Assembly (NCBI RefSeq): GCF_000325665.1
Contig: NC_019908.1
Coordinates: 1,674,001-1,738,000, forward strand
Origin: Brachyspira pilosicoli P43/6/78
Lineage (GTDB): Bacteria; Spirochaetota; Brachyspiria; Brachyspirales; Brachyspiraceae
Length of the DNA stretch: 64,000 nt
Direction of reading: 5' to 3'
The notes beneath the pieces are model-generated. The model was not told where the DNA came from. It made no database searches and saw only the letters and a program-made list of their open reading frames with translations. The translations under genes were made by a program, and so were the position numbers. Positions 2,768 through 12,477 of the stretch are shown here, piece after piece. Position 1 is the stretch's first letter. Every line of letters begins with the position of its first letter.

Positions 2768-3876
<1,109 letters not shown>

Positions 3877-4915: not shown

Positions 4916-5410
4916 TTATTTTTTATATAAATCATAAAAATACATTAAAGACTCAACAACCTCTCCGCTTCTACACATCTCTCTATACACTTTTTCATCA
5001 ACAATTTTTGCCTCACTAACCTCATTTTCTTGCAAGATTAAATCATTTATATCAACATCTCTCTTAAACACATAAGAATCAATTATAGTATTAGAAAAAT
5101 CAAGAACAAACGAAGTAAAAAATGTAGCCTCATCAACTTTAAAAGATAGCCCTATCTCTTCTTTTAGCTCCCTAATAGCTCCATCAACACTACTCTCACC
5201 CGCAACTATAGAGCCCTCAGTGCATTCCCACATGTTAGGACATATATTTTTACTGCTATGCCTTTTGGTTAATATCACTTCATCATTACTATTAACCACC
5301 CAAGCATGTATCACTATATGATAATCGCCATATTCTAAAGGTAAGCCTCTTTTATGCAGCTTATTCTTTTTATTCTTATTTATATCATATACGTCCCAAA
5401 TCTCAGCCAT
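4916..5410 (-). CDS. Nudix hydrolase (YfcD/IPP-isomerase-like branch)
   Basis: A complete 23-residue Nudix box spans residues 66-88, from GSIVAGE to RELKEEIGL, so a metal-dependent nucleoside-diphosphate-type hydrolase is expected. The N-terminus WDVYDINKNKKNKLHKRG and the segment YGDYHIVIHAWVVNSNDEVI resemble the Nudix branch related to isopentenyl-diphosphate isomerase. The substrate cannot be read from the sequence. It is the last gene of a tight three-gene operon, 18 bases after the radical-SAM-like gene, so its substrate may be linked to that protein. Confidence 0.88.
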   Translation of the reverse strand: MAEIWDVYDINKNKKNKLHKRGLPLEYGDYHIVIHAWVVNSNDEVILTKRHSSKNICPNMWECTEGSIVAGESSVDGAIRELKEEIGLSFKVDEATFFTSFVLDFSNTIIDSYVFKRDVDINDLILQENEVSEAKIVDEKVYREMCRSGEVVESLMYFYDLYKK

Positions 5411-5428
5411 AATATTTTTTTGATTCTA

Positions 5429-6889
5429 TTACTCCCTATTGATATACGATGACACAACATTTCTAAAAGAGTTTATATGATGCTTAATATCATATATATC
5501 TCTAATGCTTAAAATTTTATGTAAAACATACATAGGATTAAATGATAAATTATAAAAATATTCTACATACTGAAAAATATCATCAACTTCCAATTTGAGT
5601 ACACTGCTGCGCATATCATATTCAAACCAATTATCAGTATTAATATAATTATTCTCTTTGCAATAATTAAATATATTGGTACCAGGATATGGCACAAAGA
5701 TTGAAGTATTCATTGTATTAATATAACCGCTAGTCATTAAATATTTTATTACATCGAAGGTAGCAATAATATCGTCTTCATTCTCCCAAGGATATCCAAT
5801 CTTTACCATCATATCTATAAATAAACCAGCCTTCCTTGCCATTTTAATAGACTCAATAACAGAATCTATACTAGTATATGAAGGAAAAAGTTTTTCTAAT
5901 GTCTTAGTATTTGCAGAAGGAAAAGTAACTATTAATGTTTTAAAACCAGCTTTTTTCATCATTTTATAATAATGATAATCCAAATCAGTAAAATACATGT
6001 GGCAATCAATATAAACTTTTTTGTTTAATTTTCTCTCTATCATAGTTTGACAAAAAAGTGAAAGCCATTCTCCCATAGGAAAAGATACTGTAACATCAAC
6101 AAACTCTTTTATACCATATCTTTTATATAAATATTCTATTTCATCAACAACATTAATAGGGTTTCTTAATCTAACATTATTAAATAATATATTGGAAGCT
6201 GCACAACTATAATTACTAAAAACAGCACCCCTTCCAGACATAATAAATGTAGCCGGAGTTTTTTTATAATACTCATTTTCTTTGGAATATAATTTCCAGT
6301 TAGTAAGATTTCTATCTATAAATGGAAGGCGGTCTAGAGGATAGTCAAGTTTACATTTGCCGGTATTTCTAATATTTCCTTGAGAAGTTCTATAATATAT
6401 ACCTTCTTTTAATTTTTCACCGTTATTAATATGATTTACAATGCTTAAAAGAAGTATATCATAATCTCCTCCTGTAATAACAAAATCTACTTCAGATTTA
6501 TCAAAACTCTCTTCAGGCAATGCTGTAACATGGTCGCCTGCCAAAACTATATAAGCATTTTTATATTTATCTTTAATAGCATCAATAGTATCCCAAGTAT
6601 AATTTATAGTAGCAGTAGTAGCTTCAAAAAATATTAATTGCGGATTTATTTTGTCTATCTGTATAAGCCAATCTATTATATCCATCTTTCTTGCTACAGT
6701 ATCTATAAAAAAAACATCATATCCGTTATTTTTTAATAAAGTAGCAGCATAGGCAGGAAGTATTGGATAATTGCAGCTAAAATTCCTCACCCATTGAAAT
6801 TGCCTATTTAAAGACATTAATGGAAAACCTTTATTATATTCAAAAGGAGGATATGTTATACATACTCTATTAATTTTTTCTTTTTTCAT
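5429..6889 (-). CDS. Radical-SAM/cobalamin-binding-like protein with a degenerate Fe-S cluster motif
   Basis: 486 residues. The N-terminal part (about 1-175) resembles the B12-binding Rossmann domain of BchE-like enzymes (PILPAYAATLLKNNGYDVFFID, then LAGDHVTALPEE and VDFVITGGD). The C-terminal part resembles the radical SAM barrel (MARKAGLFIDMMVKIGYPWE, then FVPYPGTNIF). At the place of the cluster loop, where family members read RGCxxxCxxC, this protein reads RGAVFSNYSC: the first two cysteines are Ala222 and Asn226, and only Cys229 remains. No other CxxxCxxC is present, so it probably cannot hold the catalytic 4Fe-4S cluster in the usual way. The frame is intact and long, which argues against decay. 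It lies 17 bases after the YkgJ-type gene and 18 before the Nudix gene. Confidence 0.8.
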   Translation of the reverse strand: MKKEKINRVCITYPPFEYNKGFPLMSLNRQFQWVRNFSCNYPILPAYAATLLKNNGYDVFFIDTVARKMDIIDWLIQIDKINPQLIFFEATTATINYTWDTIDAIKDKYKNAYIVLAGDHVTALPEESFDKSEVDFVITGGDYDILLLSIVNHINNGEKLKEGIYYRTSQGNIRNTGKCKLDYPLDRLPFIDRNLTNWKLYSKENEYYKKTPATFIMSGRGAVFSNYSCAASNILFNNVRLRNPINVVDEIEYLYKRYGIKEFVDVTVSFPMGEWLSLFCQTMIERKLNKKVYIDCHMYFTDLDYHYYKMMKKAGFKTLIVTFPSANTKTLEKLFPSYTSIDSVIESIKMARKAGLFIDMMVKIGYPWENEDDIIATFDVIKYLMTSGYINTMNTSIFVPYPGTNIFNYCKENNYINTDNWFEYDMRSSVLKLEVDDIFQYVEYFYNLSFNPMYVLHKILSIRDIYDIKHHINSFRNVVSSYINRE

Positions 6890-6906
6890 TGCTTATATAT
6901 ATTTTT

Positions 6907-7350
6907 TTATTTTACTTTTTTAGCTATTTTTTTAGGAGATTTAGAAGATTTCTTTTTAATTATTTTTTTCTCATAAACATATTTTTCTAATTCATACTGG
7001 TCATCAAATATTACATCATACCACTCTTCATATCTCTCACATTTAGGCGGACTATGCTTAGTACATATATCATGTCTATTCTCATAATTTTTACACAAAT
7101 AAGTTTTTTTATCTAAATACCTGCACTCGCTTCTTATCATATGGTACCAAGTATCCTGATATATAAATATAAATGAATGCTTAAAATAAAGATACCATTT
7201 CAAAGTTTTTAATTCTTCTTCATTTTTAGGCTTAGATATTTCCATTACCAAATCATGACAGCATAAAGAATTACAATCTGCACATAATTTATCTGTAACT
7301 TTCTCTTTTCTATCTTTAAAAATTTTATCAGACGGTATCACTTTCATCAA
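6907..7350 (-). CDS. YkgJ-family cysteine-cluster protein
   Basis: 147 residues with eight cysteines spaced as in the YkgJ (putative zinc- or iron-chelating) family: Cys23, Cys26, Cys30, Cys31, then SECRYLD, YLCKNY, DICTKH and PPKCERY. The C-terminal 25 residues are Lys/Ser-rich (KKIIKKKSSKSPKKIAKK). The family is thought to bind a metal or cluster; a methyltransferase role is known only for the related FliB. It is the first gene of the operon with the degenerate radical-SAM-like and Nudix genes. The start is the double Met after AAGGTGATTT on the minus strand; the second Met is equally possible. Confidence 0.75.
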   Translation of the reverse strand: MMKVIPSDKIFKDRKEKVTDKLCADCNSLCCHDLVMEISKPKNEEELKTLKWYLYFKHSFIFIYQDTWYHMIRSECRYLDKKTYLCKNYENRHDICTKHSPPKCERYEEWYDVIFDDQYELEKYVYEKKIIKKKSSKSPKKIAKKVK

Positions 7351-7465: not shown

Positions 7466-7790
7466 TATTGGAAAAAGTTGAATAAAAAAACTTATTATAT
7501 ATTTAAAAACTTTTAAGTTTACTAAAAATATTTTTATGTTTTTGTTGTTTTGGGAGCTAGCCCCCTTGCGAAGCGTGCCCTTAGGGTACATACCACCAGT
7601 TCTTTTGCCGACGCTCTGCGTGCCTGCGGCAAGGCACCTACTCGGTGCGACCGTAGGAAGTGCCCTTGCGGCGTGCCACAAAGAACCAAAAAGGCTGCAT
7701 TGTTTAGCTTAAAATGTTGGTATTATCTTAATATATATTCCTAAAATATTAGCTATAGTATTTGTACTTTTTGCAACTTTTTGTTGATAT
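7466..7790. repeat. Composite intergenic repeat: type A arm, spacer, expanded type B, spacer, type A arm
   Basis: Fills the 7351-7844 gap. GGAAAAAGTTGAATAAAA (7470 onward) leads into a spacer with CTTATTATATATTT that recurs near 22760. An expanded type B element (7549-7701) has a centre of about 90 bases built from short G+C-rich pieces (GCGAAGCGTGCCC, GGCACCTACTCGG, GCGACCGTAGGAAGTGCC). After it comes the spacer TTAGCT...ATATATTCCTAAAATATTAG, which recurs near 22650, and CTTTTTGCAACTTTTTG. Short reading frames on both strands across it are made by the repeat and are not genes. Confidence 0.75.
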
Positions 7791-8784: not shown

Positions 8785-9225
8785 TCAATCTTTAGAATAA
8801 TTCTCCATAAACTTAATCAGCTCTTTTAAACAATTCGTATACTTCACTATATCCTCATCTTTTAATGAAGCAAGCATATCTGTATCAAGCTTTTCAAGTT
8901 TTTCTAATATAGGCTCGGCAAACTTAATACCCTTTTTGGTGAGAGTAATAATTTTGTTTCTTTTGTCTTTGGCATTAATTTTCCTTGTAATGTAGCCCTT
9001 TTTCTCAAGACCATTAAGAAGAGAACAGCTAGTTTGTTTTGGTATGCATAATTTCTCTGTAACCATATTCTGCGGACATTCTTTATTATAATAAATTAAC
9101 CCTAGTGTAAACAAAGTTAAATCTGTTATACCATACTGTTTTGCCCATATATGATAAAACCTATTAGTTTCATACCAATGGTCGTATATAATGTCTATAT
9201 GCTTCTTTAACTCTTCTTCTTTCAT
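8785..9225 (-). CDS. MarR-family transcriptional regulator
   Basis: 146 residues with the MarR winged-helix layout: N-terminal dimer helix, recognition region MVTEKLCIPKQTSCSLLNGL near residues 54-73, the wing KINAKDKRNKIITLT near 82-96 and C-terminal dimerisation helices. MarR proteins bind palindromes as dimers and often respond to small ligands. It starts 11 bases after the end of the NSS transporter gene, so it is probably co-transcribed with it and may regulate it. The ligand is unknown. Confidence 0.88.
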   Translation of the reverse strand: MKEEELKKHIDIIYDHWYETNRFYHIWAKQYGITDLTLFTLGLIYYNKECPQNMVTEKLCIPKQTSCSLLNGLEKKGYITRKINAKDKRNKIITLTKKGIKFAEPILEKLEKLDTDMLASLKDEDIVKYTNCLKELIKFMENYSKD

Positions 9226-11678: not shown

Positions 11679-12477
11679 TTGAAGGTTTCTTTTATTCAAT
11701 TTAACGTAAAAAAAGATAAAAAAGAAAATATAAAAAAAATAGAAGAATATATTAAAATAAATGATGCTAGTTTAATAGTACTACCAGAGCTTTCTTCTTC
11801 TGGTTATTTATTTGAAAATAGAGAAGAATTATTAAGCGTATCTGAAAGTATAAATAATGAAGATGAAATAAATAAAAAATCAATATTCATAAACTCTATA
11901 ATAGAAATATCTAAAAAATACAACAAAGCCATAATAGCAGGATTTGCTGAAAAGTTTAAAAGATAAAATTTACAATTCAGCATTAATAGCAGAAAGCGGA
12001 TATTTGAAAGGAGTATACAGAAAGGTTCATTTATCAGATTTTGAAAAGAAGTTTTTTGATGCTGGAGATATAAAGGAATCCTACAATGTATTTGAAGTTT
12101 GTAAAGAAAAAGTATCTATACAAATTTGCTTTGATGTATGGTTTAGTGAAATATCTAGAAATCAAATATTAAACGGAAGCAATTTAATATGCATTCTTGC
12201 AAACTTTGGAGGAGAAAATACTTTAGATATAGCAAGAGTAAGAGCCATTGAAAACATCACTCCTATAATATTATGCAATAGAGTTGGAAGAGAAAAGACA
12301 AAAGATATTGATGCGTACTTTATTGGTAAAAGTTTTATAGTTGATAAAGACGGAAGTTTTTTGGCAAATGCTGATAAAGATGAAACAACATCATTAAATG
12401 CAAATATAGAAATTAATAATTCAAAATCTAATATAATATGCTCAAACTTTTATGATGAAATAAAAAAGCATTATTAA
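11679..12477 (+). CDS. Carbon-nitrogen hydrolase (nitrilase superfamily), frameshifted in this sequence
   Basis: The catalytic triad is complete across two phases: Glu37 in LPELSSSGY (TTG start at 11679), Lys in VYRKVHL and Cys in SIQICFDVWF. Phase changes at TTTAAAAGA (11955-11962); removing one A gives the continuous stretch AEKFKDKIYNSALIAESG and a protein of about 265 residues, typical of amidases of this superfamily. The substrate is unknown; cytoplasmic omega-amidase-like enzymes are the nearest guess. It is probably co-transcribed with ispE. The last 4 bases overlap the convergent gene at 12474. Confidence 0.88.

Follow-up and report, generated by a model that had tools for sequence, protein, structure and literature searches.

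Radical SAM enzymes hold a [4Fe-4S] cluster through three cysteines, arranged as CX3CX2C or a variant of it, and we asked what has become of a radical-SAM-like (rSAM-like) protein of Brachyspira that carries no such cysteines. Its gene lies in a window of 64,000 nucleotides, the whole stretch of DNA analysed here, from Brachyspira pilosicoli P43/6/78, whose genome (G000) is one contig of 2,555,556 bases and shows 96% protein identity to strain T010. As the initial annotation had described, three genes follow one another on the minus strand with gaps of 17 and 18 bases: a YkgJ-type CxxCxxCC gene (6907-7350; 147 aa with a TTG start), the rSAM-like gene (5429-6889; 486 aa), whose intact frame of 486 codons was confirmed, and a Nudix hydrolase gene (4916-5410; 164 aa). 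The YkgJ-type product is a member of the Pfam family CxxCxxCC (PF03692; 5.1e-7, 30.7 bits against a gathering cut-off of 23) with its cysteine cluster present, and the Nudix product matched Pfam NUDIX at 1.1e-12. In the rSAM-like protein, residues 46-140 matched B12-binding (PF02310; 1.7e-9, 38 bits against a cut-off of 32.1), the N-terminal Rossmann domain of class-B members, and residues 231-379 matched Radical_SAM at 2e-6 and 28.5 bits, just under the cut-off of 29.5. The latter match begins at profile position 16 and thus skips the cysteine loop.

Loss of the cluster ligands and of SAM-site residues

The degenerate cluster loop spans residues 220-236 (RGAVFSNYSCAASNILF; 6182-6232, minus strand), and the sequence RGAVFSNYSC begins at residue 220. 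The nearest intact relatives carry CX4CX2C (RDCWHHRCTFCSW) and not CX3CX2C, and the alignment to them, ungapped from residue 220, places the cysteine-equivalent positions at Ala222, Tyr227 and Ala230, none of which is Cys in any of the 25 Brachyspira copies. The initial annotation was thus right that the motif is gone and that Ala222 has replaced a cysteine, but its second position has to be moved from Asn226 to Tyr227, and the CxxxCxxC spacing it assumed is not that of the relatives. Cys229 occurs in the pilosicoli group only and aligns with the Phe of CTFC, so no cluster cysteine survives; the version found in most other Brachyspira, RGS.YNNYNSNSSN, is entirely free of cysteine. A re-sited cluster was rejected, since none of the residues that set the cysteine-less clade apart is a cysteine.

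The spacing of the intact relatives has been described before in GenD1, a cobalamin-dependent radical SAM methylase (PMC4340712), and departures from the standard spacing are reported as not unusual (PMC8992657). Among distant rSAM-like relatives (L003:4015-5487, L025:1174-2688, L125 and L127), the cluster loop is greatly lengthened: instead of the CX3-4CX2C arrangement, the first two cysteines are separated by some 10 to 30 residues, e.g. RGCGGSNSYKNFKSNKKLKGQYDTKMPGLCTFC.

The losses extend to the SAM site. Gly268 (DDTG), Asn297 and Arg299 (CNMR), and Gly322 and Glu324 (GLES), all of them invariant or nearly so among intact relatives, are replaced, so that the barrel lacks the SAM-site motifs of its close relatives; residues 322-327 read TFPSAN (5909-5926, minus strand) where intact relatives have GLESAN. 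GYPWE and PYPGT are retained. Of the 13 loop positions that are invariant in canonical proteins 10 are lost, and of the 56 such positions of the B12 domain 39 are retained, including G118, D119, H120, G140, G141 and D142. This concentration of losses at the cofactor site counts in favour of a non-radical derivative. In the superfamily, reductive SAM cleavage relies on both the cluster ligands and the SAM site; with the former absent and the latter altered, such cleavage by the rSAM-like protein is, as judged from its residues, very unlikely. In an order-level relative (G030; L055:4240-5700), the three cysteines are kept but LCIFSAN stands in place of the FGLESAN found elsewhere, possibly another step away from SAM binding.

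Retention of the two-domain fold

The structure model of the rSAM-like protein, built from a five-sequence alignment, is of moderate confidence (pTM 0.72, mean pLDDT 66), with the cluster loop below a pLDDT of 50. A Foldseek search of the PDB gave TsrM, MgmA, OxsB, AprD4, CysS and TokK as the best matches, with E values of 1e-14 to 1e-18 for TsrM, MgmA, OxsB and AprD4. Together with the Pfam match below the cut-off, these matches assign the protein to the radical SAM fold, a partial TIM barrel. The overall two-domain fold that the initial annotation proposed to look for is retained in the model, which supports, at this confidence, a preserved class-B architecture. The B12-binding-type Rossmann domain (residues 46-140; 6470-6754, minus strand) has the conserved GDH at 118-120 and GGD at 140-142 at its end. 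However, AprD4, among the closest folds, has a similar domain yet is not known to need cobalamin, and the presence of the domain alone therefore leaves cobalamin binding putative.

These features bear on whether the protein could be a non-radical cobalamin enzyme, its B12 domain carrying a corrinoid for polar methyl transfer in the manner of TsrM but without a cluster. Most conserved residues of the B12-type domain are kept, and TsrM, the best fold match, is itself a non-radical methylase (PMC8992657). TsrM, however, keeps CX3CX2C and its cluster, the loss of SAM-site residues puts the methyl donor of the rSAM-like protein in doubt, and a search for a cobalamin riboswitch gave only a sub-threshold match in the genome. 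We consider this reading unlikely.

Distribution and history of the loss

The rSAM-like gene was found in 25 of 26 Brachyspira genomes, with the three cysteines absent and the frame free of in-frame stops in every copy. The sole exception is G006 (990 contigs, 88% complete), in which neither the rSAM-like gene nor YkgJ was found. Homologues with normal cysteines, which the initial annotation took as a sign of local mutation or error, are indeed present, both in other genera and within Brachyspira in the form of a paralogue, but the loss is fixed genus-wide. Sequencing error or local mutation was rejected, as the same change is present in 25 genomes.

In a tree built without the loop, the cysteine-less copies form one clade (100/100) that groups with the genes of G028, G027 and G026; the intact Brachyspira paralogue falls elsewhere. 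G028 and G027 represent two other Brachyspiraceae genera in which the same YkgJ gene adjoins an rSAM gene with normal cysteines, indicating that the YkgJ/rSAM pairing is older than the cysteine loss, which argues against YkgJ having come in as a replacement for the cluster. In G026, a congener of G028, the rSAM-type gene is also cysteine-less and is the only copy, with no intact one. YkgJ of the same subfamily was not detected in G026, where the contig stops 238 bases upstream of the gene and holds no YkgJ remnant in that stretch. The gene tree is compatible with a single loss common to G026 and Brachyspira (AU p = 0.37). Nevertheless, the congener G028 is intact and has its gene at the same place as G026, beside a MazG-type gene (named from sequence), and the two losses were therefore probably independent. 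Fourteen further loci were read, and the cysteines are kept in all of them except the G026 copy, which was included as a check.

Selection on the cysteine-less gene

Within the pilosicoli group, dN/dS of the rSAM-like gene is 0.08-0.12. YkgJ (0-0.04) and the intact paralogue (0.02-0.04) lie below this range, and Nudix spans 0.10-0.25. Relative to its intact paralogue, the rSAM-like protein evolves about 4.5 times faster, so that partial relaxation is possible. On the other hand, its distances follow those of the species marker RarA (r = 0.98), indicating that the gene is vertically inherited and constrained. With catalytic residues lost and the gene conserved under purifying selection, it has the hallmarks of a pseudoenzyme gene.

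These data weigh on the view that the gene is a relaxed, slowly decaying relic, or that the window sequence contains an error. The faster evolution would fit, and further frames in the window look interrupted. Against this stand the intact frame, the same loss in 25 genomes, a dN/dS of about 0.1 and a conserved promoter-like site, from which we conclude that the gene is not decaying; a relic or an error is highly improbable. Among the interrupted frames, a ribD-like gene (2768-3864, minus strand) is apparently split into a deaminase part (3565-3864) and a reductase part (2768-3559), possibly by a frameshift or a sequencing error, and a nitrilase-like gene (11679-12477, plus strand) is apparently split into the overlapping frames 11679-11966 and 11944-12477.

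The YkgJ-type partner and the promoter region

YkgJ lies directly upstream of the rSAM-like gene in all 25 Brachyspira genomes that have the latter, and its eight cysteines are invariant among six aligned sequences. The three-gene order of the initial annotation holds for this pair only: Nudix adjoins the rSAM-like gene in the five pilosicoli-group genomes only and lies elsewhere in every other Brachyspira in which it was found. Nudix was therefore rejected as a third functional member, the idea that it processes a nucleotide product is not supported, and the functional unit probably consists of YkgJ and the rSAM-like gene.

A perfect TTGACA-17-TATAAT sequence, the predicted promoter, precedes the pair at 7413-7385 (minus strand), and the other Brachyspira genomes examined have TTGA...TATAAT at the same place, even with a different upstream neighbour. 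In most other Brachyspira a MarR-family gene is directly upstream of YkgJ; in the window, an outer-membrane-like ORF and a repeat separate the MarR-family gene (8785-9225, minus strand) from YkgJ. A G+C-rich dispersed repeat (TTGCGAAGCGTGCCCTTAGGGTAC...) occupies intergenic positions 7552-7700, upstream of the pair, and its 24-base core has 20 genome copies at up to two mismatches, against 0 for a reversed control.

We also compared evolutionary rates. The raw covariation between the rSAM-like protein and YkgJ looked strong (partial r 0.91 when controlled for the paralogue) but dropped to a residual correlation of 0.32-0.44 under control for two species markers, RarA and FtsH, and was for this reason counted as modest only. 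This residual is small, and linkage can produce such covariation between neighbouring genes. The corresponding value for the intact paralogue, after species control, is -0.06 to 0.17. Taken together, the residual covariation leans towards YkgJ as the partner rather than the intact paralogue, though linkage may explain part of it.

The paralogue enters a further explanation, in which the rSAM-like protein, as the inactive chain of a heterodimer, has a regulatory or structural role alongside the intact, active chain. Such pairs commonly arise after duplication, and the genomes with the cysteine-less gene also hold the intact paralogue, 45% identical to it. But the two genes are about 0.7 Mb apart in G000, their residual covariation is near zero, and G026 holds a cysteine-less copy alone, so that we rate a heterodimer as quite improbable. 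As a separate observation, the intact paralogue is unusually conserved across species: that of the pilosicoli group is 94-97% identical to those of G016 and G012, where RarA is 85% identical, and the position of the group in the paralogue tree differs from that given by the cysteine-less gene; an exchange of the paralogue between this group and other species is possible.

Could YkgJ restore the missing chemistry? In a split enzyme, YkgJ would dock on the rSAM-like barrel and provide in trans either a [4Fe-4S] cluster or the chemistry of methyl transfer, and the pair would stay catalytic. The constant pairing, the eight retained cysteines and the catalytic [4Fe-4S] cluster bound by the related motif of FliB (PMC8598068) are consistent with this. 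However, the pairing predates the loss, SAM-site residues are lost beyond the cluster ligands, and in G026 the cysteines are gone with no YkgJ of the same subfamily found. The suggestion of the initial annotation that the protein obtains a metal from YkgJ is weakened by the intact rSAM genes beside YkgJ in G028 and G027 and by a Brachyspira loop without obvious metal ligands. We regard a split enzyme as distinctly unlikely, and the particular form in which a barrel without its own cluster and SAM site, on a B12-carrying scaffold, receives Fe-S chemistry from YkgJ as a second subunit has a low probability.

Most plausible role of the protein

The rSAM-like protein derives from class-B radical SAM proteins; its lack of a cluster is real and conserved, and the protein has probably been repurposed, as opposed to reflecting gene decay or faulty sequencing. 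The proposal of a retooled, non-radical member has thus gained good support: cluster cysteines and SAM-site residues are lost genus-wide while purifying selection maintains the gene. Given the conservation of the gene, of its pairing and of the promoter-like site, a non-radical partner of YkgJ is the most likely role. We therefore favour, as moderately likely, a class-B homologue that has permanently lost radical chemistry but has been preserved in Brachyspira for a non-radical function, as a scaffold or pseudoenzyme subunit that works with YkgJ. The ancestor would have given up radical chemistry when the three ligands of the cluster and several residues of the SAM site were lost; the gene would be transcribed together with YkgJ from the pair's own promoter, and the product, non-catalytic itself, would form a complex with YkgJ as its subunit or scaffold. 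The retained Rossmann and C-terminal domains may bind a ligand or substrate. Fe-S or metal chemistry, if any, would sit in YkgJ, given that motifs resembling PF03692 are able to bind a catalytic [4Fe-4S] cluster, as in FliB.

No description of a cluster-less class-B radical SAM member was found in full-text literature searches. The locus is a clean natural experiment in which a radical-SAM protein has lost cluster and SAM site yet is still selected across one genus. Intact counterparts for comparison are available as the paralogue within the same genomes and as YkgJ-paired orthologues in sister genera. This makes the locus suitable for asking which functions the B12-domain/barrel scaffold and the poorly understood YkgJ family have outside radical chemistry.

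Comparison with known systems

The intact paralogue (G000:C1:960381-961832) has the same two-domain architecture and length as the window protein. The orthologues of G028 and G027 (49% and 43% identical) share architecture, length and the YkgJ partner. All three differ in having the cluster cysteines (RDCWHHRCTFCSW, RDCWHHKCTFCSW and RGCFHNKCTFCRS, respectively) and a GLES/GIES SAM-site motif. The best NCBIfam matches, over nearly the full length, are HpnJ (TIGR03471) and BchE (TIGR02026), which form a subgroup of class-B radical SAM proteins, but the scores (101.2 bits against a curated cut-off of 577.6, and 85.6 against 481.35) place the rSAM-like protein outside both equivalogs, and it lacks their cluster cysteines. 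TsrM (6WTE/6WTF; E 1.2e-18), a cobalamin/SAM methylase, shows that this scaffold can support non-radical chemistry; it is 14% identical to the rSAM-like protein and, unlike it, retains CX3CX2C and the [4Fe-4S] cluster (PMC8992657). A PDB search with the YkgJ profile gave no match. FliB has a similar cysteine motif, CX4CX3CC, whose cluster mediates methyl transfer and which was compared to PF03692 (PMC8598068), the family of the YkgJ-type partner; the partner differs in its CX2CX3CC motif, its length of 147 aa and in having no known methylase activity.
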